Shown here: positions 2,253 to 64,000 of the stretch, piece after piece | Layout: every line of letters begins with the position of its first letter | Position numbering within the stretch: position 1 is the stretch's first letter | NCBI RefSeq assembly: GCF_026151205.1 | Contig: NC_087077.1 | Location: 744,001 to 808,000, forward strand | Origin: Bolinopsis microptera | Lineage: Eukaryota > Ctenophora > Tentaculata > Lobata > Bolinopsidae | Length of the DNA stretch: 64,000 nt | Reading direction: 5' to 3' | The notes under the pieces: generated by a model | What the model was told of the DNA's origin: nothing | The model's database searches: none | What the model saw: only the letters and a program-made list of their open reading frames with translations | Made by a program: the position numbers and the translations under genes

Positions 2253-3042
2253 CATACAATATCCATTACTCCAGGAGTGATGACAGGATATATAAAAAAA
2301 ATTATGTCAGTAACATTGTTAAATAATTTATGTATAATGTCGTATGAAAATGGATTAGGTCAAATTAATTTAGCTATTTGTTAGTTTCTTTACCTACATT
2401 GCACATGTGAGAAGCTCGAAAAGCAAAAAGTGCGCCGCGCATAAGGATAGGGGCGCATGGACCATGCATGGTTGACCATTGTTAATGATCTGGCCCGGCG
2501 CGCGCTACTTCGTAGCTCGTGCCATCGGAAGAAAGCGGCGCGCGCTACTTCGAAGAAATTTAGATGAGTAACATCCGTCAACATGCATGGTAAAACTTTT
2601 ATATCACAAACTCAAAACTGCCTCTTATACACTGTACTACACAACATGAACAACTGTCAAACAGTTTACAGATTCACTTTTATATATTAGTACCTGGCAC
2701 ACCAATTGTTAATTTCGATGTGCGGTGATCTTTTCAAGATTCTTGCATATGTTTATATTCGTATTCATATAAAAAGCGATTTATTTATTATATTCGTAAT
2801 TGTGTATGTTTGTATTTTACTTTAAGAAGTACAATTACAAATTATTTTTTTATTAAATACTTTTCAAAATTTACAGAGTACAGCAATTACAACGTATGAA
2901 ATAAACTGTAAAATCTGACGGGAGACCAAACACGGTACTGCACAGTAAAACGTGCCCGCAATTACATGGCCCCGATATGATTTTTTAAAGTGTGAAACAA
3001 AATTGTGATAAAATAAATGTGTGGTGAAGAATGTGAAACAGT
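2253..3042. other. Intergenic region with a short GC-rich island
   Basis: No gene is seen. A GC-rich island at about 2430-2560 contains two copies of CGGCGCGCGCTACTTCG about 45 bases apart and the palindrome CCATGCATGG. The rest is AT-rich. Confidence 0.5.
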
Positions 3043-3954
3043 TCAAATTTCTTCAGACGAGGCTGATACACTGTTCTTATCAGAGCTGACAATCTTATTG
3101 TTCCTTATGAAATGAACTCTGTTAGGCTCTGCTTTCCTCTTCTCTTTCAATTCCTCCCAGAGCTTCTTGTAAGCTCTCCTTTCTTCCACTGATCTGTCTG
3201 GGCAAATGTAGATACTTTTATAGCCCTCTTTTGTGCGTAGTAGTTTCGCTTTTCGCAGCACCTGAGTAACCATATCAGAGCTATTTAGAGATAGTTTAGT
3301 AGGTCGTATTAATGTGCCGGCTCTCTTCAAACCAACTCTACAACAGTCACGAAATGAAGGTTTCTCGTTTATCTCACCAAGAACTTCAGCAACTTTGTTT
3401 TCTAACTTCTCGCCGTCGGATTCACTTATTCCGTAGATTACGACGTTTCTGCTTCTTTCATCCTTTTCAGCTATTGTCTTAACTGCAGTACAGATCTTCT
3501 TTGGCGTAAGAGCAGCAGCACAAGTCTTCTTCAGGGCAGAAGAATATGATTTCATCTCTGTCTGCACAGTTGTTTGGACAGACTTGAGTTCTTCGTCCTT
3601 CTTTTCAATGAGCTGCTTCTGCAAATCAATGACAGTTTTCTGCTCCGCGATTAATGAAATGTTCTGTTTATCTACTCTCTCCGCAGCCATTTGCAAATGA
3701 GGAGCTGCATAACGATTCAAAATGAAACAAACAGTTTGCAGCCAATCACACAGTTTTTCTTTCGAAACTGATCGCTTGTTCAGGTTTTTCAATACTAGAT
3801 CTCCGTATTCCTTAACATCCAGTTCATGGCACATTTCATTGAAAACACTGTTTGTAGCTCTCGCTACCTGATCTGCATGTCTGGCACTAAACAGATCATC
3901 ATTATCGGGGTCATCGACCAAATGCTTCGTATGTTCATGGTATGAGTACTGCAT
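3043..3954 (-). CDS. LINE ORF1-like protein (coiled coil plus RRM-like nucleic-acid-binding domain)
   Basis: This is an intact 303-codon ORF starting at an ATG. Residues about 105-150 are rich in Q/E/K/L with heptad-like spacing, suggesting a coiled coil. From about 165 the sequence reads ERSRNVVIYGISES, then a long helix-rich segment. It ends with YICPDRSVEERRAYKKL and VHFIRNNKIV. This order (coiled coil, RRM-like RNVVIYGI, basic C-terminal domain with D-R-S and R-N-N-K-I-V) is typical of ORF1 proteins of L1/CR1-type LINEs, which bind element RNA as chaperones. No ORF2 (endonuclease/RT) follows on the minus strand between 3042 and 1. This is either a decayed LINE with an intact ORF1 or a stand-alone relative. 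Function beyond nucleic-acid binding is not inferable. Confidence 0.6.
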   Translation of the reverse strand: MQYSYHEHTKHLVDDPDNDDLFSARHADQVARATNSVFNEMCHELDVKEYGDLVLKNLNKRSVSKEKLCDWLQTVCFILNRYAAPHLQMAAERVDKQNISLIAEQKTVIDLQKQLIEKKDEELKSVQTTVQTEMKSYSSALKKTCAAALTPKKICTAVKTIAEKDERSRNVVIYGISESDGEKLENKVAEVLGEINEKPSFRDCCRVGLKRAGTLIRPTKLSLNSSDMVTQVLRKAKLLRTKEGYKSIYICPDRSVEERRAYKKLWEELKEKRKAEPNRVHFIRNNKIVSSDKNSVSASSEEI

Positions 3955-6922
3955 CGTGTATATTCCAATGTACAGTTCTTGTATACAGGCTACAAAACGA
4001 TCACACTAAAAGACAAGCACTTCTTATCGCAAGTTACAACAGCTGATAACAGAGCTCGCTATTTGCAACCAAATGTAAAACGACTACACACATAATAATA
4101 TAATACAAATAACAATGTAAATGTTTCTGAAAACCTTCGTTATAATAAATAACTGCAACAGCTGGTATAATTGAAAGTATGCGGAAATGATCTGGGACTT
4201 AAACATTAATGATTAAAATGAAAGTAAAATGTGAAGACCTCAAGCTTAGCCGTTTTATTATAAGTTATTTGGCAGAGAAAAAGCCTGGCCCAATCTTATG
4301 AAGAATTCCCGTACTGCATAGTGCATTTTATTAGTTTATTTTATGTTCAAGTTTAAGCGTATAAAATATATTAGTATACAGTTGTCCTTGGAACTAATTG
4401 AATTAAAGTATATGAAGTCCACCATCAGCATTTCCTGATTCAAAAACAGTTTAAATTCAGAAGAAATCATCCTTTAATGAATATCTAAAAATTAGTCTGT
4501 GTTACTGGGCCAATTATCGATTTACCTGGGGACCACAGGCTTTATGTGCATACATTTATATATTGATTGTAGATCTGGCAGAATTACAGACTAGACTGGG
4601 TGCCGCCCATGCAGTAATTATCAATATAATATAATTATATCATCCGATGAATTGATTATGCCTAAGTATACCGTGATAAATTTGTCATCCATTTTATGGT
4701 GTTTAATAGGCCATGGGTGATGGGGCCCAGAAGACTGAACTAACACAAGTGTTCTGCTGAGACTAATAAGGTATTCCGATGTTTTTACAACCGTCTTTTA
4801 TGAATAGCTAATTCGTAAATCGAAATATTTGCAGAACTTAGCAGGCTATCTAACTGAATGTCTTTTGGCACGGCAGGTCTCTCCTTACCTTCGTTTAATT
4901 ATGGTGGGATACATTTTGCGGTTTTTCGGAAAATCTGCCATATTTCTGCCAATATTTTTACCCATCACAATATTGCCCGCCATAAATATACGAACTAAGG
5001 TACTATATAATAAACCCTCGATTACAACGTTTTTCCTTCAAAGACACCTCCATTAATAAGCTAAATTATTAAACAAATATATATCCTATCATGACAGGAT
5101 TGATTGTTCATGATTACGATTTAAATTTTAATTTGACAATGAAAATCTTCAAATAACTGGCCACAATGAGCATTTTATAAACAGTAAACAGCAGAAATAC
5201 ATAAACTTTTACTCCTCTTACAAATTTATACCCTGTGAAAATGTTATAGAACAAAATACTTGACTTAATCAGTCACTTGACGTTTCAAAACGAAACGGAG
5301 GTTAACGATGCAGTTAACAAATGCCACAGCTCTTAATGGTCACTGAAACAAATTATTTCAAAATACGAATTTAAACAGTCCATATCGAATCTGCTTTTCT
5401 GTGATCTAAACAGCTCAGAAAGAAATTACTTAAACTATTTGCATGATATTCCAACAATATCTTAATATATAGAGATGTTCGTTGTCGAATAAACATAGGC
5501 CAATATCACTTAACTACACCTCAATTCCTTCAATTCTCATAGTAGCAAAATAGAAATTTATCACGGACCCTATCTTATAAACGGATTAATCTTTCGCTTA
5601 AGACTTTTTCCTCAATTTCAACGCAAGTACTTGAAACCATGCTCAGCTGCTAGGTCATCCATGTACCTTCCACTGTTACATAGTCTGATGATGCGTTTAG
5701 CTTCCAGCACTATTGGATCAGGCTTGGCACTGTCAGATAGTTAGCTATTTCTATTAGTACTTACTAGCGCCAGCTATGGTTGTGTAGCACAACGTGATCA
5801 ATTGTTAATCTCAATCATACAACAAAAGAAAAACCTTATTAAGTCCTCACTCCTCAGCTCAGCCAAGGGATCGACATGATTTGAATGCTAGTTATTCTAT
5901 CTAAAGCCCATTTCTCAATAAAGATATTCCCAAGATCAACTTATTTCAATTAACTTCAATCCCAAATTATTCTTTTGAAATGATTTTCTGAGGATTGCTT
6001 TTAAACTGGGCAAGCATAATATGAAACTATGCACTTTACTTTACTTTATCTAGACGTTCTGTGACAGTTGATATAGTTCACTCATATCTTTTAGTTAGTG
6101 TGTCAATTTCATATCAAAACTCCCTAACACTCAACAGTGCTGATGCCCATGCTTAATATACCTCCTGTCAGGTGTAGCCTAATCTATTGTATTGAACCTG
6201 CCACAATATGGCCTTGGTACAAAGCCTTAATAAGAGCTCGTAAGGCACTGACACCAAAACTGACAGTTCACCTATGTTCAATACTAGTGCATTTTGCGAA
6301 GCTGAAGCCCTATGTTTGCAAGCAATGGTGTGGCCCCCTCCCTGGTGAAGACTGATAAATAAATGGCTCAAGGCACTACCTTGACTGGCCTGGTTCTGGA
6401 AGGGAAACGTTAGGCAAAGCTGGTCGCCTCATCTCAAGGCAATATCCTGAGCAATGCTTAATAATAGTCACCCCATACTCCCTTATTCGTCCAGACACAC
6501 ATATTTGTGATAATTTTTGTATCTGCTCAGTTTAAATAGCATCAACCGTTCCCAATAAAAGTGAAAACTGTAAAATCAATCTGTACTTAAGTCCTTGTCA
6601 GAAGTCTTGTTGATCAAATAGAGATTGAACCCACACGGTTTTTGGTATGTTTCTGACTTGTTTTTTATTTTTGGGTCAAGAATGAAATTGGACATAATTA
6701 TTTAGAAAAGTGTTTTTTCTAATGTTTTACGTACTATATCTGGAGACAGGTGTTCACTGTTCTTCAACACATGGGCTGACTTGGGTATGTTTGACATTTT
6801 TTCCAAAGGGGGAGAAAATGTTAGGCGGGTATTGAATACTTTTGGGATTTTGGGATTTACAAAATTTCCTGTACTTCTTTTATATCAGTCATTCTGACAG
6901 CAACACTCCTAAGTAGTCAGCA
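3955..6922. other. Gene-poor AT-rich region
   Basis: Only short ORFs with no recognisable motifs or splice framework are present. I see no repeat array and no RNA gene. Confidence 0.5.
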
Positions 6923-14108: not shown

Positions 14109-45495
<31,387 letters not shown>

Positions 45496-49700: not shown

Positions 49701-52700
49701 GGAACAGACGTCTACCTGCCCCCAGAATACTACCGAGAGAAGAAATACTCCGCTTTCCCTGCTGCTGTCTGGACTATTGGGTGTTTGGTCCACTGCCTCA
49801 TTGCTGGAGACTGTCCTTTCAACGAGAAAACAGAGATCCGGGACTACGTTGAATTGCAGTGGCTTGATGATGGAGACGATCTCGCAAAGGACTTTATCAA
49901 CCGGTGTATGAAGAATGACGTTGATCAGAGACTTGATATTGTAAGTCTGTTGACGCATAGGTGGTTTAATGAGCCAGAGATTAATCCTAGTCTATGAGCT
50001 GGTTTACTTTTAGATAACATACATTTTCATTCACGTGACTCATTTATTTGTACGATATTTGTCATTTTTGTTTCACAGTATTTTTATCAGATTTATATAA
50101 CAGCATGTATTTATATACAGATTTATATGACAGTATGTTTTTATCAGATAGCTGATCTGTGCCCAATTTTAACGACATTCGTGCAGTGTGCACAATGCAC
50201 ACTGCACAGCCATGTAAGACTTTCATTTCGATCTCCCCAAATGACTCTAACTCTAACTCTAACTCTAACTCTAACTCTAACTCTAACTCTAACTCTAACT
50301 CTAACTCTAACTCTAACTCTAACTCTAACTCTAACTCTAACTCTAACTCTAACTCTAACTCTTACTCTAACTCTAACTCTAACTCTAACTCTAACTCTAA
50401 CTCTAACTCTAACTCTAACTCTAACTCTAACTCTAACTCTAACTCTAACTCTAACTCTAACTCTAACTCTAACTCTAACTCTAACTCTAACTCTAACTCT
50501 AACTCTAACTCTAACTTACCTTCTCTCATGTAGTCTACAGGAACACATCTTTGACCGAGAAGTTCGTTGGAGCTCGAGAAGAGGACGAATTGTAACATTG
50601 CTAACTGTGGGAACCCAACCGAAAACTCCATAGTGTTAGAGGGTAGATCCTGATACCATTTGGGAGATACACCTGGGAAGTGGGAAATTGAGAAAGTTAG
50701 ATCCTGGTATTAATATTAATTAATTAAAATGATTAAGCAGATACTAATATTAATTAATTAAAGGTTAGATCCTGATACTAATATTAATTAATTAAAATGA
50801 TTAAGCAGTGATTTTATATGCTAAACTCACCAGGTTTTCTGTCAACAGTAGATTTCTTTTGTATATTTTGATCGGGTCCAATACCATGGAGGGTCACACT
50901 TACAAAACAGCCTGTCTTGTTCCAGTTCTTCGGGAGGGAAATCAGCCTGAATAGAGTAATTTAATATTAAATGCTTTAGAAAAACAGCGTATAATAAAAA
51001 TGAAACAGGTAATACCAAAATTTTATTTTGGTTGTGACGTAAAAACATATAGTCAACTGCAGGTTTACTGGGCTGACCTGCCGGTGAGGATATTTATAGT
51101 TATCACTTCAGGACCCGCGTCTGTTAAGTAGGTCTTCAGATTGTTAGGATCGTATTGTTCTTTTCGTATGAACGCAGGCTTCATTATATAGCCTCTGCGT
51201 TGATTTCTGAGGTAAATTAGGCTGTAAATCGTGAAGAACTTTACAAAAAATCCAATTATTTAATTAAAGTTTAAACACTGTCCAATTTTAACTTTGAATA
51301 ATTTGTTGTAATTCATAATCGCTGCTGATTCTAGTTGTACACTGCTAACCTAGTGAACATGCCATGGTTGAGCTGCATGGCCAGGTCAGGCGTCTGAAAG
51401 TTGAGTGCGACTAGCTGCATTCCATACGCCCACGGCAACATTGGAGAGTAGTTTGAAGAGTCCATCCTCTTCCAACTGGGATACATCCTACCTAGTTGCT
51501 GGTCGCAAAACCTGCTCAGGTTCATGTAGTCCACTCTGTTCTTGGCGAACTTATCTATCGTCAGTTCTGTAAACGAGCACATGTGGTACCTGAGATATAT
51601 CCTTATATAGGAACCACGTGGTAAGACCTCATGTCATGAGGTATGACGTCATGTCACGTGGTGTGACGTAACGTTGGAGGCGGAGCGACTCGTAGTTATC
51701 TGTAAGACAGAAAATAATAATATGCCCGAATCAGTTCTAGTGCTATAAAAAGAACGCCTAGCTCACTAACGGTTGCATTAAACTGATTGTAGCGGGAGCG
51801 AAGGGTTCTAGTTCTATAAAAAGAACGCCTAGCTCACTAACGGTTGCATTAAACTGATTGTAGCGGGAGCGAAGGGTTCTAGTTCTATAAAAAGAACGCC
51901 TAGCTCACTAACGGTTCCATTAAACTGATTGTAGCGGGAGCGAAGGGTTCTAGTTCTATAAAAAGAACGCCTAGCTCACTAACGGTTGCATTAAACTGAT
52001 TGTAGCGGGAGCGAAGGGTTCTAGTTCTATAAAAAGAACGCCTAGCTCACGTACGGTTGCATTAAACTGATTGTAGCGGGAGCGAAGGGTTCTAGTTCTA
52101 TAAAAAGAACGCCTAGCTCACATACGGTTGCATTAAACTGATTGTAGCGGGAGCAAAGGGTTCTAGTTCTAGTTCTATAAAAAGAACGCCTAGCTCACAT
52201 ACGGTTGCATTAAACTGATTGTAGCGGGAGCGAAGGGTTCTAGTTCTAGTTCTATAAAAAGAACGCCTAGCTCACATACGGTTGCATTAAACTGATTGTA
52301 GCGGGAGCGAAGGGTTCTAGTTCTAGTTCTATAAAAAGAACGCCTAGCTCACATACGGTTGCATTAAACTGATTGTAGCGGGAGCGAAGGGTTCTAGTTC
52401 TAGTTCTATAAAAAGAACGCCTAGCTCACATACGGTTGCATTAAACTGATTGTAGCGGGAGCGAAGGGTTCTAGTTCTATAAAGCGAAGGGTTCTACTTA
52501 CGGTTGCATTAAACTGATTGTAGCTTACTTACGGTTGCATTAAACTGATTGTAGCTTACTTACGGTTGCATTAAACTGATTGTAGCTCACATACGGTTGC
52601 ATTAAACTGATTGTAGCTCACTTACGGTTGCATTAAACTGATTGTAGCTCACATACGGTTGCATTAAACTGATTGTAGCTCACATACGGCTGCATTAAAC

Positions 52701-55700
52701 TGATTGTAGCTCACTTACGGTTGCATTAAACTGATTGTAGCTCACTTACGGTTGCATTAAACTGATTGTAGCTCACATACGGCTGCATTAAACTGATTGT
52801 AGCAGCACTTACGGTTGCATTAAACTGATTGTAGCTCACATACGGCTGCATTAAACTGATTGTAGCTCACATACGGCTGCATTAAACTGATTGTAGCTCA
52901 CTTACGGTTGCATTAAACTGATTGTAGCTCACATACGGCTGCATTAAACTGATTGTAGCTCACATACGGTTGCATTAAACTGATTGTAGCGGGAGCGAAG
53001 GGTTCTAGTTCTATAAAGCGAAGGGTTCTACTTACGGTTGCATTAAACTGATTGTAGCTTACTTACGGTTGCATTAAACTGATTGTAGCTTACTTACGGT
53101 TGCATTAAACTGATTGTAGCTCACATACGGTTGCATTAAACTGATTGTAGCTCACTTACGGTTGCATTAAACTGATTGTAGCTCACATACGGTTGCATTA
53201 AACTGATTGTAGCTCACATACGGCTGCATTAAACTAATTGTAGCTCACTTACGGTTGCATTAAACTGATTGTAGCTCACATACGGCTGCATTAAACTGAT
53301 TGTAGCTCACATACGGCTGCATTAAACTGATTGTAGCTCACTTACGGTTGCATTAAACTGATTGTAGCTCACTTACGGTTGCATTAAACTGATTGTAGCT
53401 CACATACGGCTGCATTAAACTGATTGTAGCTCACATACGGCTGCATTAAACTGATTGTAGCTCACTTACGGTTGCATTAAACTGATTGTAGCTCACTTAC
53501 GGTTGCATTAAACTGATTGTAGCTCACTTACGGTTGCATTAAACTGATTGTAGCGGGAGCGAAGGGTTTGGGTACTTTAACAGCCTGGCAGTAGATCACC
53601 AGATCAGAAAGTTCCTTGCTAAGCCCCATCTTCGCAGCATCATGACCTCCGCCGGCTGTGAGGGTAGCTGCTTCCGTGAATACTTTAGCGAACTGGTGGA
53701 CTTCCAAATTAGAGGTGAACCTGTGATGGATTCATGTGTTCAGACATGTCAATACTATTACTAATAGTTAAGGGGGGGGGGGGCCAATGGATATTTTTTT
53801 GTGAAACTTGATTTCGAGATAGCAGTTGACCAACAAACTAGGACCAGTGACCGAACTTTTGAGGGGGTCCCTGACCCTAACCGCCAAACGGTGCCTGCGG
53901 GGCAGCCACGCCCATATTTGGTCCAAATTAGGCCCAATTTAGCCAAATACCCTGAACATGCCCAAAACCCAAATTTTAGGTGCTCTACTTGTAGCTAGTG
54001 GTCTCCTGAACTCGTATATGAAATTTCATCAAGATTGGACAAAAAATAACTGAGTTATGAGCCAAAAACCATATGCCCATATTTGGGCATACGCACCAAA
54101 TTTGGTAGATTTCGTCCCATAAATTGGTCAAATATCAATATTTTTCACTGAAACTTACTTTATATGAAAGGTAAGCCTAAACTACATATTCTCTGTAAGT
54201 TATAGCTTTATATCTGTTTAAATGTGGATACTAAGGCGAAAAGACCACAAAAAATGAACTAAATTGCCCATATCTTGGTTCGCGATATTCGCGGAATTGA
54301 TCTCATTAAAATTGTAACAACTCAATCAGTTTTCAAAATTTGTCCATGAAATTTTCGGAATCGACTCGAAATCGCATTTCCACCTTAGTTTGAGAACAGA
54401 TTTTTAATTTAGGCCTCCAAAAAAATTTGGCGGCCAAATTCCAAAATTTTCCCGGAGAAATTCAGAATTTGGCCGCCAAATTTTTTTTGAGGCCTTAATC
54501 AAAAATCTGTTCTCAAACTAAGGTGGAAATGCGATTTCGAGTCGATTCCGAAAATTTCATGGACAAATTTTGAAAACTGATTGAGTTGTTACAATTTTAA
54601 TGAGATCAATTCCGCGAATATCGCGAACCAAGATATGGGCAATTTAGTTCATTTTTTGTGGTCTTTTCGCCTTAGTATCCACATTTAAACAGATATAAAG
54701 CTATAACTTACAGAGAATATGTAGTTTAGGCTTACCTTTCATATAAAGTAAGTTTCAGTGAATAATATTGATATTTGACCAATTTATGGGACGAAATCTA
54801 CCAAATTTGGTGCGTATGCCCAAATATGGGCATATGGTTTTTGGCTCATAACTCAGTCATTTTATGTCCAATCTTGATGAAATTTCATATACGAGTTCAG
54901 GAGACCACTAGCTACAAGTAGAGTACCTAAAATTTGGGTTTTGGGCATGTTCAGAGTATTTGGCTAAATTGGGCCTAATTTGGACCAAATATGGGCGTGG
55001 CTGCCCCGCGGGCACCGTTTGGCGGTTGGGGTCCGGGACCCCCTCAAAAGTTCGGTCACTGGTCTTAGTTTGTTGGTCAACTGCTATCTCGAAATCAAGT
55101 TTCACAAAAAAATATCCATTGGCCCCCCCCCCCTTAATGGTTGTGTCAGGTTATTACAATTTTCCTGTTTGTCCGCAATCTTTCTATATTTACTCACTTC
55201 ATGGTAATCTTTGAGATTGGAGTTGTGAAACTGAAGAATTCCGAATTGGTACTCATAATGGGGACTTGCTTCTCTATTAGTATTTTGGTTTTGAGCTGGT
55301 TTCCGAAGGGAGTTCCGTCTTTGACAACGCTCGTGATCTCTACTGGTACATGCAGACCTGGAATGAGTCAATTTGGTATCCTGTTGACATCTAAAAATCA
55401 TTGTTGATTGTTATACATAACTTGTTCTGAGCTCATAGACTGCCTCACTTTATTTTACCTTTCCTTGTCCCGAAATCTGCCTCATAGAAATCCTTAGGCG
55501 GATCACTGTCGACACGTATCTTCAGAGCGTTATGAAACTTGAACCCCTTCAACAACAAGAACTTCAAATTCAGGGCAGGGTCGTCATACGGGTAGGCCTC
55601 ATTCAGCTCCACAGTAAGACCATCCGCATTGGTACTAACATGAGTTTCTAGTCCATCTTTACATACCATCGTCAGCTTCACAGATCCTTCACTAGTTATG

Positions 55701-58700
55701 GGATTTTTAGTGAAGTGTTCCACCAAGTGATTCACGCTCCAGAACTTCAGGTTTTGGTTTATCTTGACGAACGGTCCTATCTCTCTAGCAGTCAAGTGCT
55801 GTACCACGAGATCATTTGCGTCTTTCGGCATTAGAAATGACACTGTAAACCCTATTTTAGTGTTCTTATCCATTCTGTTTCTGATGAGGAATTTGCCTGT
55901 CATCAAAGTTGGGGTCAAAAGGAGTTTCTGGGCTGTGTCCCTGTCCATGTCACCCTTGTACCAGAGCTTGTTGGTGTAATGCTCCGAGTTTGGGATGGGG
56001 TATTTGAAGTAGGCTGACTGGGGTAAGTCTTGTCGCACATGGTAGAAGTTGATGAAGTCAGGGACGCTGTTGAACTTTTCGGAGGGATCCAGGAAGAATT
56101 GAAGACGTTGTGTCAGAATGTTTATCTCACTTTTCACCTGAAGGTAAAATGAATGATTAGGTGTAAAAATCTTGCAGATGTGTACATATTTGTTTTGACC
56201 AATTAATACTGATACTGTTTTTTATGTATAATTTTTAATTATCTGTAGTTTTGAAGACATTAAAATTAAGAGGAACAGATAAAAATGAAAACATCTTAAT
56301 AAAAACTCACCTTGACATGTTTGACGGCGTTTCCCACCCAGATAGTAACCACAATGTTATAAAGTCCTGTCAGTGGTGTCCCACTCCTCCTCACAAGGAA
56401 CGAACCTATCGCTTCATTCTGATCAATACCACAGTTAACGTAACGAGAAAGGATAAAGTCCTTAACAACTTCCTCCGAGGTATCCCGACTGATAGAACCA
56501 AAGTACCAGGCGTTACAACCGTGCAATCTCATCTCCTTGCTTTGAGATAGACGGTCACGTTCTTCTTTTATATGGAGGGAATTTCCCTGAAGTACAATAG
56601 TATCATATTTGGGATTATATTTGAAGTGATTGGTTACCTGGTTACACCGTTACCTGGTTACACCGTTACCTGGTTATACCGTTACCTGGTTACACCGTTA
56701 CCTGGTTACACCGTTACCTGGTTACACCGTTACCTGGTTACACCGTTACCTGGTTACACCGTTACCTGGTTACCTGGTTTCCTGGTAAGTTACAAATACC
56801 TCGGTAATCTGGTTACTTCCTTACCTACTTACCTGGTTACTTCCTTACCTGGTTACCTACCCGGAGAATTTATAGTTATTTGGTTAGAGCCTCATTAGTC
56901 ATTACCTGGACAGCTATCTGACAGTAACTGTAAAGTTCCCCGTCAATATCGTCGTTAATGTAAACAGAGAATTTCTTCATCTCCTTGGACTCAGCCGGTC
57001 CTTCAGTCTGGATTTCGTTTAAAGTGGAGTACGCTGAATCGTTCTGAAACAACTCCTCGTCATTCTCGTCTGGTTCGTCCGAGTCGTCGTCCTCGTCTTC
57101 TATCGAGTCTGAGGGGAGAATTAGTGAGTTAAAGTGAGTCTGAGGGGAGAATTAGTGAGTTTCAATGAGTCTGAAAAGAGTGTTCACGCGTATGATAACT
57201 TGATTCCCGCGGCCGCACTATATAGTGACAACACTATATAATGACGCAGTATCTGTGTACAACTTGCAAACATAGCAGTATACCATGTCATGCGTGAGCA
57301 AGTCTATTCAGACACGGAACTAATGGAACTTGTAAAATCGGTCAAGAGATACATAGACGACGGCTGTGGAGTATTCCATGGTACGAAAAGACAGTTTTCA
57401 AAATTCATCGCGACTGTCAATACAAGGCTAGCAGAACTTGGCCTCCACATTGATGAGAACATCATAGAAGATAACAATGTTTATGTGGCGTTCTTAGACA
57501 TAAAATTTTGTTTCGACACCGCAGGTGATCTTCAGACAGACCTTCATGTTAAAGAGACTGATGCTCGCTCCTACCTGTACTTCGGTTCCCACCACCCGAA
57601 CCATACATTCAGCAGCATAGTCTATAGTGCATGCCTGAGACTCCGGCGAATCATCAATGATAACGACAGACTCCGAAAACAAATTGATGAATTAAAAACC
57701 TTTTTCTTCCAATCCAACTACCCTAAAACTATGGTAGATTTTTTTATCAAGACACTTATTTTACTTCGGAGTATTCCAACAGCCACATTGTTACACAAGT
57801 GCAACCAGCCAATTACAGGAAGCCGAAGGATTTGTTTTTAGCCAGTGACGGTTAAGGTAGTGTGTACCATACTTTCTTCGTCCGAGACTTTGCTGCAATG
57901 TGCAGCTCCTCATTTAACCCTCACACCCGATTTCTCGAGTATTCGGCTGAGTAGACCGGGGGGCTGCATAGACCACTCAGGATCCTTAGCTGAACGTCAA
58001 CGACGCTCACCCCACGACCAGGCAGACAGTGGGATTTGAACCCGCAACTTCACGATTGAAAAGCTGGCGTTCTAACCAACTGCGCTACCTGGCTTTGAAA
58101 GATGCCTAAAACCACTGGACAACTCAAACAGCAGTGTCCTGGTCCCAAAGTCTCCAGAACCAGCAGTCCGCGTTATTTCAACATTTGGCAGCGATCAAGA
58201 GTTAGTAGAATCGGTAAAAAGATTGGAACCAGAACTCAGTAGAACCAGGAGCTTCTCAGGATTATCTGGTTCCCATACAAGTGGAAACACCCCAGGCTCC
58301 CCAATATCATCTAGAGCCGGTACATCACGCCCTATCTTCAAATTCGTCAGACGTACTGGAACATCATTTAGAAGGAAGTTAGTCAAAGCAAAACAGTTTG
58401 CGGATGACTTAACCCAACCTCACACAAGACCATGTGGGGGCAGACACTGCGGTACCTGTAACATCATATCTCCACATCCATCAATAACAGTCAATGGACA
58501 GCGAGCCAAAGCAGTGTCTGGTACATGTGTCAGCTACAATGTTGTATACATCTTCAGTTGCCAACTTTGTAATATGTGTTATGTAGGAAGAACGGTGCAG
58601 CCCCTAAGGGCACGAGTAAACGAACATCGCGCCCATTACTACAAACTCATTTCGGACAATACATTTGTCCCTGAAGAAAACGACGACGGATTCAGCTTGG

Positions 58701-61700
58701 GTAAACACCTTGTAGAAGTTCATAACATGAAACAACGTGACAATTTCAACCAGGCTTATAAAGTGTCAATTCTCAGTAATAGTAGCCCAAGAACTCTAGA
58801 AGTGGATGAACACCGTTATATTCAGAAACTAAGAACTATACGTCCATTGGGGCTCAATGCCGTGGACCCGTTTGGGATTCCATTATTGGATTTATCTTAA
58901 AGGTTTTCCATTGCATTGGGGCACAAAAGTTATGTTTTTAAAAATATTCATAGGTATCGTTTTTAGTTGTGTCATTTCATTCCCAATGTTACACTTTGTA
59001 GGAACTGATATTAACCGAGTTTCTGATTCAGGATGTTACTGAAGATAGTAATGAAAATGTTTTAACACCTCAGTACTGTGTTTTACTACAGCTCAACCTG
59101 CTCAGTCTGACTATTTGGGAATTTAAACTTATGACATGTCACTATATGGTGCTGTCATTATAAAGTGCTTGTCATTATATAGTGTTGTCACTATATAGTG
59201 CGATTACCGATAACTTACCTAAGACTCAAGACTGCATTGTTACTAACTGTTACCAAACAGATTGGGAGAAGTGAGGGTCATGCAAATAAAGAAATTTTGT
59301 TGACTACATGTAAATGGGATTGCATCCCACGCCATTTCCCGAGAATATATAAATAAGAACATTCCAAACTCTATAGAGACCTTTTCAAAAAGAATTGTGA
59401 TGAATTCTAGGTCCATACTAGGAAAACTGGGTTACCTAAACGATTGAGATTGATAGATACATAATTAGATCCTGTAGTATCGGCATCACTGTCGCCTCCT
59501 TTCTCTATGAAATGGGGATTTTAAGAAGACTGTTCAAGCTTATATTTCTTTTCGAACTCAATAAGACTGCCCAAAGTTTTTGTTCCTTTTGGACAACTTG
59601 TTATTTATGGTCTTGGCCTTACTTTATCATGCAAAGTGTTGTAAAATAAATTTGAGTTTGAGGAATACTCTGAGTTGCTGCAAGTTTCGGTAATTTCTGA
59701 ATTATCAGATTGAATTATCAGATTTTTATGGCAATTTTACTTACTTTCCTGGATCTTTTTGTTTTTTACAAGTATTTTCTTTTTCAGAGCATCTGGTGAT
59801 GGCAAGCCCGGATCTTCAGGAGAAATGTCGATGGAAACCAGCTTGTTTTTGAAAACATGTTTCATCTGAAAATTTCCTAGTATGTATCATTAAATATGGT
59901 GGCAATCCAAAAATTAAAAAAACTTGCAAAAAATCTCTGAATTGTCAGTTTATAGAACTAACCATGCTATTTATAGAACTTACCATGCTAGCTGCCACGA
60001 TCTGCTGCTCGATACAGAGATGGTTTTCAATAGAGAGGATGATGGGATAATCTGAAGTAACAAAAGCGAATCTGTTAATCGCTTTTAACACCTGAAAGTG
60101 AGAGAGTGATGAGAGACTAAAAAGTAAAGTTAAAGGATATCCTGATTATTGGACTATAGCTCTGTTTTGATTCAACTTCATCTTGCTTAATCAAAAACAT
60201 ATCAATAACACACATATTTGAAACTTTATAGGTCTAAAACCGTCGTTTTTTCGACCCTATGATCACATGACACGTGGTATGACGACACATGACACATGGT
60301 ATGACGTCACATGACACGTGGTATGACGTCACGTGACACGTGGTATGACGTCACGTGACACGTGGTATGACGTCACGTGACACGTGGTATGACGTCACGT
60401 GACACGTGGTATGACGTCACATGACACGTGGTATGACGTCACGTGACACGTGGTATGACGTCACGTGACACGTGGTATGACGTCACGTGACACGTGGTAT
60501 GGCGTCACGTGACACGTGGTATGACGTCACGTGACACGTGGTATGGCGTCACATGACACGTGGTATGATGTCACGTGATACGTGGTATGACGTCACGTGA
60601 CACGTGGTATGACGTCACATGACACGTGGTATGACGTCACGTGACACGTGGTATGACGTCACGTGATACGTGGTATGACGTCACGTGACACGTGGTATGA
60701 CGACACGTGACACGTGGTATGACGTCACATGACACGTGGTATGATGTCACGTGACACGTTGTATGACGTCACGTGACACATGGTATGACGTCACGTGATA
60801 CGTGGTATGACGTCACATGACACGTGGTATGATGTCACGTGACACGTTGTATGACGTCACGTGACACATGGTATGACGTCACGTGATACGTGGTATGACG
60901 TCACGTGACACGTGGTATGATGTCACGTGACACGTGGTATGACGTCACGTGACACGTGGTATGACGTCACGTGACACGTGGTATGACGTCACGTGACACG
61001 TGGTATGACGTCACGTGATACGTGGTATGACGTCACGTGACACGTTGTATGACGTCACGTGATACGTGGTATGACGACACGTGTCACGTGGTATGACGTC
61101 ACGTGACACGTTGTATGACGTCACGTGACACATGGTATGACGACACGTGACACATGGTATGACGTCACATGACACGTGGTATGACGTCACGTGACACATG
61201 GTATGACGACACGTGACACGTGGTATGACGTCACGTGACACGTGGTATGACGTCACGTGACACGTGGTATGACGTCACGTGACACGTGGTATGACGTCAC
61301 GTGACACGTGGTATGACGTCACGTGACACGTGGTATGACGTCACGTGACACGTGGTATGACGTCACGTGACACGTGGTATGACGTCACGTGACACGTGGT
61401 ATGACGTCACGTGACACGTGGTATGACGTCACGTGACAGGTGGTATGACGTCACGTGATACGTGGTATGACGTCACGTGACACGTGGTATGATGTCACGT
61501 GACACGTGGTATGATGTCACGTGACACGTGGTATGACGTCACGTGATACGTGGTATGACGTCACGTGACACGTTGTATGACGTCACGTGATACGTGGTAT
61601 GACGACACGTGTCACGTGGTATGACGTCTCGTGACACGTTGTATGACGTCACGTGACACGTGGTATGACGTCACGTGACACGTTGTATGACGTCACGTGA

Positions 61701-64000
61701 CACAACTCACGTCGAAGAGTTTGATCTTGGTGCACCACGTGTTTTGATGCCACACTATAGGATCGTTGTTAGGACCGTCTATACAGTCGAGTTCTATACA
61801 GCGACATCCTTGTAACAAGGTTCTGATATACGCCTCCACTGAGCTGGCCCCTGTTAGCTGATGTCCTGGTATGTTAGGGTTAGGGGTATTTCCTTATATG
61901 GGTCGCACGTGTTGAGATGTCATGTGGTTTGCTACATTGCGTGACCACAAACGTGCAGAAATTACTGGAATTCCACCAGATTTTAACCGCTTTAAACGCT
62001 TAGTTTTTTGTTGCTAGATCCCAACAATTCAACAAAACCTTCAGTGCTAAGTTAACTGTTTAACTGTAGCGCTGTTCTATATTACATGTATTTTATAATG
62101 AATAAAGTATGTTTATATTGCTCCTTCCTGACACCAGCCTGTAATGTTTTCTCATACTATTTATTCCAAAATTCAAATAAATTTTACATCAATGTATTAC
62201 CATCGTATTATTTTTAATGTTATTATTAATTATTATCATAGCATTTGTGTCCAGGAAACGAAGGAACTTGTGGTCAATACATTACTTATTATATCATATT
62301 ATAACTAAATTACCTCACTCCTCCACGAAGGGGTGTTAGTGTACTTTTGTAACTTTATTGTACTTCTCAAGTATTAATACTTAATTTTTATGTTTTTCTT
62401 GCATATACAGTATACATATTTAATCTTAAATTATCATTTTAGTGGAACTATGTAAAAGGGGATCGTTGCTAGCGTTAAAACTGTTTTAACCCTGCCATAG
62501 TCAGTTGAAAGTCTGATAGCATATGTTCCGTTTGATTTGACCAAACTAATGCCTTTCATTGCTTTATAATAGTGCTAGTAAAATACCACTTGAAATCCGA
62601 TTGTGAAACGCTCGGGTTGCTAGATAATTAGACAACTCCTGGCTAAAATATGACTTTATATTGTTTCTGGATGCGGAACTGACTCTTCCACATTCGTAAA
62701 TTGCTAATTAATATTTAGAAGAATACACACTTAAACAGTTGATATGTTCGATGGAAATTGGAGTTTGACATCTGTTGCCGACAGTCTTAACGAGATTTAA
62801 CCAGCATCTAATAAACATTTTTACAGTTACCAAAGCTTGCTTTTAAATACTTGATTTATATTTTGTTTCTAATCATTACCGAGCGTGCTAAATCAATTTA
62901 CACTCGATTTTCGAGATTTCTGAAAGGACCCCCGACAGTTGAAACCAACTTGAATCGATGTATTTTCGGACGCTGATTATGAATCAACCCCCATGACATA
63001 GGGTTAAAATGCTCCCCTAGCAAGATATTGGCGATCGTTAGGGTTAGGGTTTCAGCATATGCTTTTTTAAGGGATTGGGTTAGGGTTAGGGTTGGGATCA
63101 GATTAGAGGGTTAGGGTTTCGAATAGTCGTTCAGGGCCACCTAGAGAACGGGTTGAAAAAGTCACGTGACATTCGAGTGTAGAGTGATAAATCATCATCC
63201 AATCATTACGCTTGATATTACCGCCTTTGTGATTTATATCATTCTTAACCACTTTTCGTTCACAAACCCATAAACATTTTAACTTCCCCACAAAACCGAC
63301 TAACGAGAGTCTTTCCTTTTACTCACCCATAAGGTAGGTGTTGTGAGAGGAATTAATCCAATAGTAGTTTAGCGAGTAAACCATGTTGTCACTTTTCTTT
63401 ATGTCGAATATATCGTTCTCTCTTGAGAACAACATTGTGTAGAAATCTCTGATTGGAACTTTAGACTCCTTTTTACTGACCTTCTTGCCGGTTACCCTCT
63501 TGCTCATCACGAATGTACGTTTCTCGGTGGAGATTTCTTGCTTCTGAAGGTTTTTAATGTCGTCTAAAGTTGCAAATATCATGTTGTTGTAGAAACCTAA
63601 AGTAAGTTATTGTCTGCCTATTGTTATGATTACCACTCATTAGGTTTTCTTGAATTTGCTAACATTTATCAAGTTTTTTAACTGTTCGTTTTGATAAGTA
63701 AAGGTTACCTGAATCCTTTTGCAAAACTTGTTGAACTGGTCAACGCTAAGTCCATGTTTTCCGTAGTTGTACCCTTCCAGAATAACTTTACCTAGAAGCC
63801 ATGTTTCGAGCATCTGGGGAACAATGTTGGCGGTCTATGTCATTGACTTTCACAAGTGAAAGGACTTTCAATGCAAACTATAAATACGGTCTTTCTGGCC
63901 CTACTGTCATAATCACTACCAAATCAAGTCTTGAAGTACATGTATAAACATTCAGCAACTCACAAAAGCATGGAAGAATTCTTGGAGCTGCTTGAGGTTC
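46574..64000 (-). CDS. PLCG: Phospholipase C gamma, partial (EF-hand region to C-terminus), 17 exons
   Basis: The enzyme hydrolyses phosphatidylinositol 4,5-bisphosphate to diacylglycerol and IP3 downstream of tyrosine kinases. Exons (5' to 3' on minus): 63964-64000 (cut by the edge), 63709-63813, 63327-63596, 61711-61865, 59984-60091, 59745-59865, 56906-57108, 56311-56586, 55459-56137, 55198-55357, 53532-53720, 51350-51589, 51078-51206, 50831-50946, 50520-50672, 47217-47365, 46574-46780. All junctions are GT..AG and in phase except 63709-63813 to 63327-63596. The X-box catalytic set is intact: His-Asn in SSHNTYL, Glu and Asp in IELDC, His in IVWH, Glu in SIENH. Both SH2 domains keep the phosphotyrosine Arg (FLVRRS, FLIRNR). 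The SH3 is degenerate and the first split-PH half is poorly recognisable. The N-terminal PH domain lies beyond the window. Confidence 0.93.
47217..47365 (-). CDS. PLCG: PLC-gamma exon, end of C2 domain
   Basis: It encodes [20 protein letters not shown] and LVHV, matching the last C2 strands of PLC-gamma (G-Y-R-x-V-x-L ... L-E-L-A-x-L-L). It then runs into a polar tail. The phase-1 entry fits the exon at 50520. Confidence 0.85.
47740..48370. repeat. Probable decayed mobile element with a near-perfect hairpin, inside a PLC-gamma intron
   Basis: The AT-rich segment is followed by two copies of GGCGCGGCACAGTA(G/A)CGCAT at about 48012 and 48070. A hairpin at 48201-48238 has arms CGCCGTGTAGCA / TGCTACACGGCG and an AT-rich loop. 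An open frame across it shows no recognisable protein. The element type is unknown. Confidence 0.4.
48926..48933 (+). promoter_or_regulatory. TATA box of the PIM-like kinase gene
   Basis: TATATAAG lies 96 bases before the kinase ATG. About 25-30 bases downstream is CATCATTCAGTTT, a possible initiator. CACGTG/ACGTCAC elements lie 80-140 bases upstream (about 48788, 48832-48865). Confidence 0.6.
49029..49418 (+). CDS. PIM-like kinase exon 1 (N-lobe)
   Basis: ATG to donor GTAAGC, 130 codons, with glycine loop, Lys43 and hinge. Confidence 0.88.
49029..49997 (+). CDS. PIM-like serine/threonine kinase, two exons, nested in a PLC-gamma intron
   Basis: Exons 49029-49418 and 49554-49997, joined in phase 0 (donor GTAAGC, acceptor CTCACCAG), give 277 residues: essentially one kinase domain. 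Visible motifs: GSGGYGTV loop (21-28), AVKIV with the ATP-binding Lys43, [16 protein letters not shown] hinge region, catalytic HRDIKDEN (142-149), DFGSAS (163-168), PPEYY in place of APE, and a WTIG helix. DLF.YI after the hinge, [12 protein letters not shown] and the PPE motif are PIM-family features; PIM kinases are constitutively active Ser/Thr kinases lacking a regulatory domain. All catalytic residues are present, so an active enzyme is expected. It has its own TATA promoter. The gene is transcribed opposite to PLC-gamma, within its 47366-50519 intron. PIM membership rather than another CAMK is inferred by motif. Confidence 0.88.
49554..49997 (+). CDS. PIM-like kinase exon 2 (C-lobe)
   Basis: From acceptor CAG at 49551-49553 to the TGA; it contains the HRD, DFG and PPE motifs and ends EPEINPSL. 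Confidence 0.88.
   Translation, partial: VVHYLVSCGIDHRDIKDENILLNPTTLQIKLLDFGSASKLSPDPYTTYQGTDVYLPPEYYREKKYSAFPAAVWTIGCLVHCLIAGDCPFNEKTEIRDYVELQWLDDGDDLAKDFINRCMKNDVDQRLDIVSLLTHRWFNEPEINPSL
50239..50516. repeat. CTCTAA hexamer array abutting a PLC-gamma splice donor
   Basis: About 46 copies of CTCTAA on plus (TTAGAG on minus), with one CTTACT variant near 50360. The array ends inside the donor GTAAGT of the exon at 50520-50672, so the intron starts GTAAG then (TTAGAG)n. A four-copy run of the same hexamer occurs at about 37474-37497. Confidence 0.95.
50520..50672 (-). CDS. PLCG: PLC-gamma exon, middle of C2 domain
   Basis: It encodes GVSPKWYQ, then [19 protein letters not shown] and [16 protein letters not shown]-x-x-P-x-W and L-x-F-V are C2 core features. 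Acceptor TTCCCAG, donor GTAAGT. Confidence 0.88.
50700..50812. repeat. Three imperfect repeats of a TAATATTAATTAATTAAA-type unit
   Basis: GTTAGATCCTG and ACTAATATTAATTAATTAAA recur three times, filling most of the short intron 50673-50830. Confidence 0.7.
50831..50946 (-). CDS. PLCG: PLC-gamma exon, start of C2 domain
   Basis: It encodes [20 protein letters not shown], then [19 protein letters not shown] cryptic GTAAGT lies in frame inside the exon at the Phe-Val-Ser codons, but the read-through frame fits the C2 family. Donor GTGAGT. Confidence 0.85.
51078..51206 (-). CDS. PLCG: PLC-gamma exon, Y-box end to C2 linker
   Basis: It encodes [20 protein letters not shown] and then [16 protein letters not shown]. 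The GY-x-x-KP signature ends the catalytic barrel. Acceptor CCTCAG, donor GTCAGC. Confidence 0.88.
51350..51589 (-). CDS. PLCG: PLC-gamma exon, Y catalytic box
   Basis: It encodes [10 protein letters not shown], ...[17 protein letters not shown]..., and [20 protein letters not shown]. The R-x-YP, DSSNY and Q-x-VALNFQT motifs are diagnostic of the PLC Y-box. Entry completes a Pro codon left by the exon at 53532. Confidence 0.93.
51731..53566 (-). repeat. Minisatellite made of a duplicated exon/5' splice-site junction (71- and 31-bp units)
   Basis: The left part has 10 long units (71 bp, some 77 bp by an extra CTAGTT); the right part has about 33 short units (31 bp). Read on minus, every unit carries GCTACAATCAGTTTAATGCA ACC followed by GT(AAG/ATG/TAG/ACG)TGAGC. 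The rightmost unit is the real end of the PLC-gamma exon at 53532-53720 with its donor. Long units also carry CCCTTCGCTCCC from the exon upstream side. A segment of about 530 bp of short units appears duplicated (junction phrases near 52475 and 53007). Confidence 0.95.
53532..53720 (-). CDS. PLCG: PLC-gamma exon, end of split PH and start of Y-box
   Basis: It encodes [20 protein letters not shown], then [20 protein letters not shown] and [20 protein letters not shown] matches the Y-box entry of PLC-gamma. The last 12 codons and the donor GTAAGT form the first unit of the minisatellite. Confidence 0.9.
53772..55133. mobile_element. 1.36-kb foldback element (near-perfect palindrome) flanked by TTAA, in a PLC-gamma intron
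   Basis: Arms at about 53772-54440 and 54462-55133 are near-perfect reverse complements around a loop of about 20 bases. The ends are a 12-G run on the left and an 11-C run on the right, each bordered by TTAA (53768-53771, 55134-55137). TTAA targets and terminal G/C runs are seen in piggyBac-type non-autonomous elements, but no transposase is present and assignment is tentative. It makes up almost the whole intron 53721-55197. The ORFs in each arm are mirror images without a known domain. Confidence 0.85.
55198..55357 (-). CDS. PLCG: PLC-gamma exon, degenerate SH3 end and second split-PH half
   Basis: It encodes [15 protein letters not shown], then [10 protein letters not shown] and [14 protein letters not shown]. 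Phases (1 in, 2 out) fit both neighbours; the other frames contain stops. [10 protein letters not shown] occupies the place of the SH3 motif L-F-P-x-N-Y-V. Confidence 0.8.
55459..56137 (-). CDS. PLCG: PLC-gamma exon, end of N-SH2, whole C-SH2, degenerate SH3
   Basis: The largest exon, 226 codons. It begins with the end of N-SH2 ([13 protein letters not shown]), then C-SH2 from [17 protein letters not shown] through GKFLIRNR to [14 protein letters not shown]. The phosphotyrosine Arg is kept. The rest (AYPYDD ... [12 protein letters not shown] ... [12 protein letters not shown]) aligns with an SH3 fold whose WW pair is replaced by FY. Confidence 0.9.
56311..56586 (-). CDS. PLCG: PLC-gamma exon, N-SH2 domain
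   Basis: It encodes [11 protein letters not shown], then [20 protein letters not shown] and VKHVK. W-Y-F-G and FLVR are SH2 hallmarks. The acceptor TACTTCAG precedes [13 protein letters not shown]; donor GTGAGT. Confidence 0.92.
56632..56789 (-). repeat. 16-bp array carrying CAGGTAAC, in a PLC-gamma intron
   Basis: About nine copies of CCTGGTTACACCGTTA on plus, followed to about 56860 by looser TTACCTGG/TTACCTAC repeats. On minus each unit reads CCAGGTAACGG, which resembles the real donor of this intron (TCCAG then GTAATG). Confidence 0.92.
56906..57108 (-). CDS. PLCG: PLC-gamma exon, acidic linker
   Basis: It encodes a run dominated by Asp/Glu ([18 protein letters not shown]), then [10 protein letters not shown] and [20 protein letters not shown]. 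It occupies the place of the X/SH2 linker and the first split-PH half, which is not clearly recognisable. Phase 1 in, 0 out. Confidence 0.8.
57246..57810 (+). pseudogene. Penelope-like element reverse transcriptase fragment
   Basis: The open frame includes LANIAVYHV (RT motif region), then [12 protein letters not shown] with the YxDD active-site core. Next come [20 protein letters not shown] and [20 protein letters not shown], which match the Penelope-like RT thumb (H-P-x-H, R-x-R-R-I). The N-terminal half of RT is missing at the left inverted repeat, and a SINE truncates the right side. Not functional as it stands. Confidence 0.85.
57811..58093 (-). mobile_element. tRNA-derived SINE inserted in the Penelope-like element
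   Basis: On minus the head is tRNA-like: A box TAGCGCAGTTGG (58076-58087), B box GGTTCAAATCC (58032-58042) and a recognisable acceptor stem (CCAGG/CCTGG) over about 76 bases. The body and tail continue to GCTTCCTGTAATT at 57811. The anticodon cannot be assigned with confidence. A related copy lies at 6923-7100. Confidence 0.8.
58094..58900 (+). pseudogene. Penelope-like element GIY-YIG endonuclease fragment
   Basis: After the SINE the frame continues [10 protein letters not shown]. Then come [24 protein letters not shown] (paired Cys, a zinc-knuckle-like motif) and [19 protein letters not shown] with [14 protein letters not shown]...CYVGRT is the GIY-YIG nuclease core as used by Penelope-like elements to nick DNA. 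The ORF runs to a stop at 58900. It is separated from its RT by the SINE. Confidence 0.88.
59745..59865 (-). CDS. PLCG: PLC-gamma exon, X-box end and linker
   Basis: It encodes [20 protein letters not shown], then [20 protein letters not shown], matching the LPSP-x-x-LK-x-KIL-x-K-x-KK linker of PLCs. Donor GTAAGT. Confidence 0.92.
59984..60091 (-). CDS. PLCG: PLC-gamma exon, X-box
   Basis: It encodes [20 protein letters not shown] and [21 protein letters not shown] carries the catalytic Glu. Donor GTAAGT. Confidence 0.94.
60261..61704. repeat. 22-bp tandem array carrying CACGTG and TGACGTCA, at a PLC-gamma donor
   Basis: About 65 copies. The unit joins TGACGTCACGTGACACGTGG and TA, so it holds TGACGTCA, GTCACGTGAC and ACACGTGG palindromic cores. 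Point variants include ACGACAC, ATGTCAC and GTTGTAT. The array ends at the donor GTGAGT (61705-61710) of the exon at 61711. Confidence 0.95.
61711..61865 (-). CDS. PLCG: PLC-gamma exon, X-box with catalytic residues
   Basis: It encodes [20 protein letters not shown], then [13 protein letters not shown] and [21 protein letters not shown] carries the catalytic/calcium residues and VWH the second catalytic His. The usual Y-H-G is W-H-Q here. Confidence 0.94.
63037..63121. repeat. Interstitial telomere-like TTAGGG repeats
   Basis: Three short runs of GGGTTAGGGTTAGGG type at about 63037-63053, 63077-63096 and 63106-63121, and a fragment at about 61876-61890, all in the same PLC-gamma intron. Confidence 0.8.
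63327..63596 (-). CDS. PLCG: PLC-gamma exon, EF-hand end to X-box start
   Basis: It encodes [20 protein letters not shown], ..., [19 protein letters not shown], then [14 protein letters not shown] with the first catalytic His and its neighbouring Asn. Entry needs a phase-1 donor, but the previous exon as drawn ends in phase 0. A GTAAAG within that exon (after LLETWLL-type sequence at about 63792) would give phase 1, so the 5' junction is unresolved. Confidence 0.88.
63709..63813 (-). CDS. PLCG: PLC-gamma exon, EF-hand region
   Basis: It encodes [20 protein letters not shown] and [15 protein letters not shown], between acceptor CCCCAG and donor GTAACC. It joins upstream in phase 0. The downstream phase does not match (see the next exon), so its 3' end may be earlier. 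Confidence 0.65.
63964..64000 (-). CDS. PLCG: PLC-gamma exon, partial at window edge
   Basis: The frame reads [12 protein letters not shown] before donor GTGAGT. Phase 0 fits the exon at 63709-63813. It is cut by the right edge. Confidence 0.6.

Follow-up and report, generated by a model that had tools for sequence, protein, structure and literature searches.

How does the start of one intron come to hold the end of the preceding exon and its 5' splice site in 43 tandem copies, the original included, over about 1.8 kb, and which of these copies would the gene use? The question is raised by a phospholipase C (PLC)-gamma-type gene on the minus strand of a 64,000-nucleotide (nt) stretch of the ctenophore Bolinopsis microptera (contig NC_087077.1, positions 744,001 to 808,000; hereafter the window, whose coordinates are used throughout). 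The array is very probably a ‘mirage’ minisatellite, a tandem duplication over a 5' splice site that would be near neutral, with the first donor in use; the order of events, the use of donor 1 and neutrality are what we infer from the sequence.

Profile searches against Pfam place PI-PLC-X at 61893-61696 and SH2 matches at 56649-56299 and 56221-55448, all on the minus strand. The array and its exons are the following, a slash marking the border between exon and intron:

53532..53720, minus strand: PLC-gamma-type exon (open frame, PLC structure matches, PI-PLC-Y), its last 36 nt recurring as the exon-derived half of the long unit.
53523..53534, minus strand: donor 1, ACC/GTAAGTGAG, taken to be the authentic 5' splice site (phase-2 junction; equalled but not surpassed in strength among the 43 donors).
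52434..53554, minus strand: stretch of 31-bp units holding donors 1-33, two of its steps being 68 bp, and containing a block repeated at a 534-bp shift (Tandem Repeats Finder (TRF), donor steps, unit alignment).
51734..52433, minus strand: long-unit part, donors 34-43, with 77- and 71-bp steps and an acceptor-like TTCTTTTTATAG in the units (sequence, TRF, donor steps).
51700..51770, minus strand: last donor, GTTAGTGAG, and the non-repeated intron tail ending TTTTCTGTCTTACAG (sequence, unit alignment).
51350..51589, minus strand: downstream exon with most of the PI-PLC-Y domain (PF00387 by itself; domain complete once joined).
51078..51206, minus strand: next exon (frame continues; inside the stretch matched by PLC structures).

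TRF divides the locus into two adjoining arrays, one of period 71 with 10.8 copies (51734-52524) and one of period 31 with 33.9 copies (52496-53554). Cutting at every exon-end/GT junction, with the authentic donor at 53531 included, yields 43 tandem donors, so that an earlier interpretation of this locus (the sequence-only reading) was right about the tandem donors and slightly low in counting about 40. The GT is kept in all 43 (GTATGT in 20, GTAAGT in 18, GTTAGT in four and GTACGT in one), and every copy shares a 31-nt core, made of 23 nt of exon end and 8 nt of intron, in which seven columns vary. Selection for GT in every unit was considered and rejected, seven variable columns out of 31 being too few to tell. 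After GTnnGT comes GAG in 36 of the 43 copies, GTAAGTAAG in four, GTAAGTAGA in two and GTAAGTGCT in one; the motif GTnnGTGAG, earlier ascribed to every unit, thus holds for 36 and fails for seven. Steps from donor to donor measure 31 bp (30 times), 71 bp (five), 77 bp (four), 68 bp (two) and 32 bp (once), and the 71- and 31-bp units first described were accordingly present but did not make up the complete list. As had been proposed, the 71-bp unit consists of 36 exon nt and 35 intron nt, and the array has grown from exon end plus donor: an alignment run in case the unit was unrelated to the exon end matched the two without gaps. The full 36-nt exon end recurs in 12 copies, the real exon among them, with no mismatch in ten and one mismatch in two.

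Removing precisely 40 nt between a pair of GCTA repeats turns the 71-bp unit into the 31-bp unit. Tandem duplication over the exon-intron boundary would first have copied 36 exon nt and some 35 intron nt into a 71-bp unit, the 40-nt deletion between the GCTA repeats would have produced the 31-bp unit, and unequal exchange or slippage may then have expanded both kinds. Between about 53343 and 52972 the sequence recurs 534 bp away: of the 12 31-nt windows compared, eight agree at all 31 positions, three at 30 and one at 26. This points to segmental turnover. The non-repeated tail ending TTTTCTGTCTTACAG at 51700 is perhaps a remnant of the original short intron. The spliceosome would use donor 1, which is transcribed first and is not exceeded in strength by any other copy, and the remaining array would be spliced out as ordinary intron, leaving it close to neutral; it would be tolerated because the first donor is used.

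What the donors would yield can be read from the exons. Joining 53720-53532 via donor 1 to the exon from 51589 and to 51206-51078 gives an open frame that covers positions 1-113 of the 114 of PI-PLC-Y (E 5.8e-35); the exon 51589-51350 by itself exceeds the cut-off for PI-PLC-Y (PF00387) over model positions 24-101, and an acceptor lying 12 nt upstream, which would start the exon at 51601, likewise keeps the frame open. The joined protein matches 23 distinct sequences of the Protein Data Bank, PLC-beta3 and PLC-gamma1 included; both alignments displayed are to PLC-beta3 and cross the donor-1 junction, and the PLC-gamma1 match spans the same stretch. Only donor 1 among the 43 leaves an open junction to the Y-domain exon, in agreement with the earlier statement that the phase-2 junction needs the first donor. 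The variable protein extension suggested at the same time is contradicted: joined to the Y exon, all 42 later donors give one identical truncated piece of 63 residues ending ISLMQP, because an in-frame TAA (CCG TAA) lies directly at donor 1. In a matrix built from 36 other hand-set donors of the same genome, ACC/GTAAGT (donor 1) has the best score among the array's five donor types, and it also has the best U1 pairing; none of the 42 later donors is stronger, and the 17 that are equal would, if used, truncate the protein. The frame-keeping acceptors (51590, 51602) fall outside the array.

Several points weigh against a mirage spliced from its first donor. Donor 1 scores below the median of the 36 hand-set donors (10 of 36 score no higher), and 17 other array donors are identical to it over -3..+6. 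The presumed acceptor, ATATCTCAG (51590), looks weak, while the more convincing site at 51700 would lead straight into a stop (CCA TAA). In many splicing systems, moreover, the donor nearer to the acceptor is favoured. An assembly error in copy number is also possible.

An unlikely alternative is that U1 sometimes takes donors 2-43 and that the resulting messages are destroyed, array length thereby tuning the amount of PLC-gamma. The convergence of 42 out of 42 alternative donors on one stop would suit such unproductive splicing, as would the 17 later donors identical to donor 1 over -3..+6. However, that convergence is trivial, since it follows from the TAA inside GTAAGT; with 7 of 31 core columns variable, the GT kept in all 43 donors does not indicate selection; and at least one sister array (locus L011, 497-894) is, by reading, without a good donor.

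It is very improbable that a pre-existing minisatellite supplied the exon end, and not vice versa. The near identity of exon end and units speaks for such an exonisation, but the exon end lies within the Y-domain profile and aligns to PLC-beta3 without large insertion, and the array was not found anywhere else in the genome. Indeed, a search of 264.65 Mb in 232 contigs, which skips very common words, found no second copy, the sole extra match being the array's own exon end; a dispersed element was rejected on this ground, and the array, seen at one place, lacks the introner-like spread of similar copies through many introns. A collapsed or inflated assembly is very unlikely as the source of the array, for although long near-identical arrays are hard to assemble, this one has ordered unit variants and a mid-array shift of type, and similarly built arrays with different sequences stand elsewhere in the genome. 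Two further candidates were rejected, a coding repeat because no frame in the array stays open beyond 52 codons, and a known structured RNA because the window has no Rfam match at the gathering score.

The mirage explanation rests on a precedent. In amphioxus (lancelet), where this kind of repeat was first described, minisatellites over exon-intron boundaries were named ‘mirages’ (PMC3087553; PMC3902484), which removes the claim of the sequence-only reading that the array is of an undescribed kind. The reported hosts are Adh3 and the globins BflGb6 and BflGb9 (PMC3087553; 150-160 bp in the globins), with PGBD5 and troponin C added by PMC3902484, and Adh3 data and globin reverse-transcription PCR suggest that mirages leave splicing unaffected (PMC3087553). 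The PLC array has the same kind of structure: its tandem units span the exon-intron boundary of a coding gene, with 23-36 nt of exon end plus the intron start in 43 copies, and the splice signals are kept (GT in 43 of 43). On length instability, a further trait of mirages, the observations are the block shifted by 534 bp within the PLC array and, in sister arrays only, differing copy numbers. Differences are that the two BflGb6 haplotypes carry 6 and 3 units, against 43 here; that both boundaries can be duplicated in amphioxus, whereas donors seem to prevail in this genome; that splicing was checked there, whereas the PLC array is known from genomic sequence alone; and that mirages were reported in cephalochordates and the PLC array lies in a ctenophore. 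In the Rogers model, as cited in PMC3087553, introns arise when a tandem duplication brings splice signals with it. The PLC array shares with this model the duplication bearing splice signals, but its acceptor lies outside the array, so that the two splice sites do not both come from duplicated copies and no new intron need have formed; the long units carry the acceptor-like TTCTTTTTATAG, and raw material for a new intron is therefore present. Introners, or intron-generating transposons, are likewise repeated sequences with a splice site; the PLC array differs in being found at one place only. A limited search of the ctenophore literature brought no report of such arrays to our notice. The PLC array is a large new example of a known, rare kind of repeat, and what may be new is the abundance of such arrays and their preference for donors, perhaps in a very distant animal.

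Similar arrays, a search for which had been recommended, are present behind several other likely exons of the genome. We searched for three AGGTAAGT within 14-44 bp of one another, the matches listed covering contig C1 and the first part of C2. Among these matches are seven arrays, five of them independent, and with the flanks read all seven begin no more than about 12 nt from a probable exon end:

L044/L050: exon end ...AYLMIALFTQ/GTACTT, 32-bp unit, mostly exon.
L046: ...VRTVVNK/GTAAG, 44-bp unit including 39 exon nt, 43 copies.
L047: ...ECDCGTEE/GTAAGT, 8 copies.
L048/L049: ...EANNWLPDQ/GTACTT, 19-bp unit, intron only.
L045: array beginning about 12 nt past the donor.

Loci retrieved for PLC homology add three arrays, one in L013 (PI-PLC-Y exon ...NYNKRQVSRIYPK/GTTATACC, 92-bp unit, 7 copies) and two in L011 (SH3 exon ...DPDYVGW/GTGAGT, 20 bp x 20; ...NPL/GTATAAAC, 48 bp x 2.1), and in the window an array at 31306-32254 begins about 17 nt past a likely exon end, ...WACEMEY/GTGAGA. 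Three of the seven array-adjoining exons tried have a Pfam match, SH3 of L011 and PI-PLC-Y of L013 over the cut-off and a disintegrin-like domain of L047 under it (E 3.4e-06), which the next exon, ECIASDPCC, continues from donor 1. The exons of L044, L046, L048 and near 32271 gave no Pfam match and are defined by open frame and splice signals only. Copy number differs between duplicate loci (37.0 versus 26.1 for L044/L050; 28.0 versus 3.0 for L048/L049), the aligned pieces of which are 95-99% alike; those displayed for L044/L050 comprise exon and array. In three of the five independent arrays (L044, L045, L048) the word AGGTAAGT lies on the strand opposite to the gene, so that the transcript would repeat ACUUACCU, the sequence at the 5' end of U1 small nuclear RNA.

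Further repeats lie in the PLC gene itself, identified by TRF and reading:

59949..59990, minus strand: second duplication of an exon end and donor, AGCATG/GTAAGTTCTATAAA and AGCATGGTTAGTTCTATAAA.
60263..61710, minus strand: 22-bp x 65 array beginning 7 nt past donor TTCGAC/GTGAGT.
50244..50519, minus strand: 6-bp (GAGTTA)45 array beginning 3 nt past donor GAAG/GTAAGT of a later PLC exon.
57105..57174, minus strand: acceptor duplication TTCTCCCCTCAG/ACTC (CTCAG/ACTC) x2.3 at the start of the acidic linker exon.

One frame of the hexanucleotide array at 50244-50519 (minus strand) is open throughout and encodes Leu-Glu repeats. At 56633-56905 (minus strand), CCAGGTAAC-type repeats fill much of a 268-nt intron up to its presumed acceptor, which the array 56633-56773 reaches by reading. 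Introns of the same gene also hold CCCTAA telomere-like repeats (63030-63125, minus strand) and, on the opposite strand, open frames that look retroelement-like, as judged from the reading frames only (57245-58900, plus strand); 53764-53900 is a piece of a dispersed repeat with at least 40 other genome matches. Elsewhere, locus L081 has two similar myosin head exons in succession, 59 nt apart and possibly mutually exclusive (3014-3206 and 3266-3488), and a 17-bp x 6.4 array of branch-point-like CTCACTAATC that ends 10 nt before an acceptor (5637-5744), while L077 (2960-3175) repeats in tandem an acceptor, a short exon-like stretch and a donor, CTCTGTAG/GG...CTCTGAG/GTAAG.

Do tandem repeats, then, favour donors in this genome? 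A repeat was called flush when it spans a donor or begins no more than 15 nt past it, and the expectation was random placement in the same introns. Introns were set by hand in the PLC gene and in two myosin segments, the latter chosen irrespective of repeats, and the repeats of L011 and L013/L014 were assigned to introns where possible. One intron between alternative myosin exons was dropped, one donor was shifted by 1 nt, four intron lengths were assumed (500, 1250, 1500 and 1700 nt) and one cut repeat of L082 was included. Not counted are L011 3256-3283 and four repeats of L013 (21-198, 624-724, 921-987 and 1662-1686) that have no assignable intron, two weak repeats of L014 (2180-2209 and 2338-2376), and the TRF repeat at 56809-56858 of the window. 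On this basis, 10 of 30 repeats are donor-flush where 4.40 are expected (p 0.004), 9 of 29 without the reported array (p 0.009) and 6 of 18 outside the reported gene (2.53 expected, p 0.02); the two myosin segments alone give 3 of 10 (1.38 expected, p 0.14), which is not significant. Acceptor-flush repeats number 4 of 30 (4.40 expected), 2 of 18 outside the reported gene and 1 of 10 in the myosins. In a smaller repeat set, 7 of 21 lie at donors (3.07 expected, p 0.018) and 3 of 21 at acceptors, and at a score of at least 100 it gives 4 of 9 at donors (p 0.06).

In a 209-kb sample (the window and 40 loci), TRF at thresholds of at least 4 copies, a 12-bp unit and a score of 150 returned 14 rows, or 12 arrays once the reported array (two rows) and the array of L013/L014 (fetched twice) are each counted once. 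Hexamer scores indicate coding sequence 5' of the array in 5 of the 12; on the 3' side, just one score is positive, and it comes from the antisense strand of the exon next to the reported array. Thirty kinase loci, mostly with the whole kinase domain in one frame, hold no array at these thresholds.

Words were also counted in threes over the genome. The donor words AGGTAAGT and AGGTGAGT have 1212 matches versus 11 reversed and 1016 versus 184 reversed, and the acceptor word TTTTTCAG has 133 versus 20; since an unrelated word, GAATGTGA, has 371 and its reverse 526, we rejected match counts as a genome-wide measure, which are unreliable because one long array yields many matches. Counted as arrays on C1, AGGTAAGT has five and AGGTGAGT at least 12 (to 25.92 of 26.2 Mb), one of them shared, hence at least 16 distinct arrays; the comparison words TGAATGGA, GAATGTGA and TTTTTCAG have none, one and one. 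Single sites of the five words in 221 kb (6, 6, 5, 10 and 21) make them about equally common, or the controls commoner. The one array of the control word TGAATGGA has AACAAG/GTAAGAG on its minus strand. The word test alone is no proof of donor seeding, because AGGTAAGT is antisense in three of five independent arrays and the flanks of just one of the 12 AGGTGAGT arrays were examined. A preference of tandem arrays for donors in this genome is possible to probable, given the small sample and hand-set introns. We propose more tentatively, as something short of probable, that 5' splice sites are hot spots for the birth of minisatellites, with arrays starting at donors far more often than at acceptors or in mid-intron, so that a large class would be amplified exon ends plus donors; either donor DNA would be unusually prone to tandem duplication during transcription, or duplications there would be uniquely harmless as the first donor wins.

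With up to 43 nearly identical donors in a row, such arrays provide a natural test of how the spliceosome decides between equal 5' splice sites; where identical donors follow one another in order, the choice can be read directly from RNA sequence. If donors do seed minisatellites genome-wide, splicing or transcription would be tied to tandem duplication, and new exons and introns would have a constant source of raw material.

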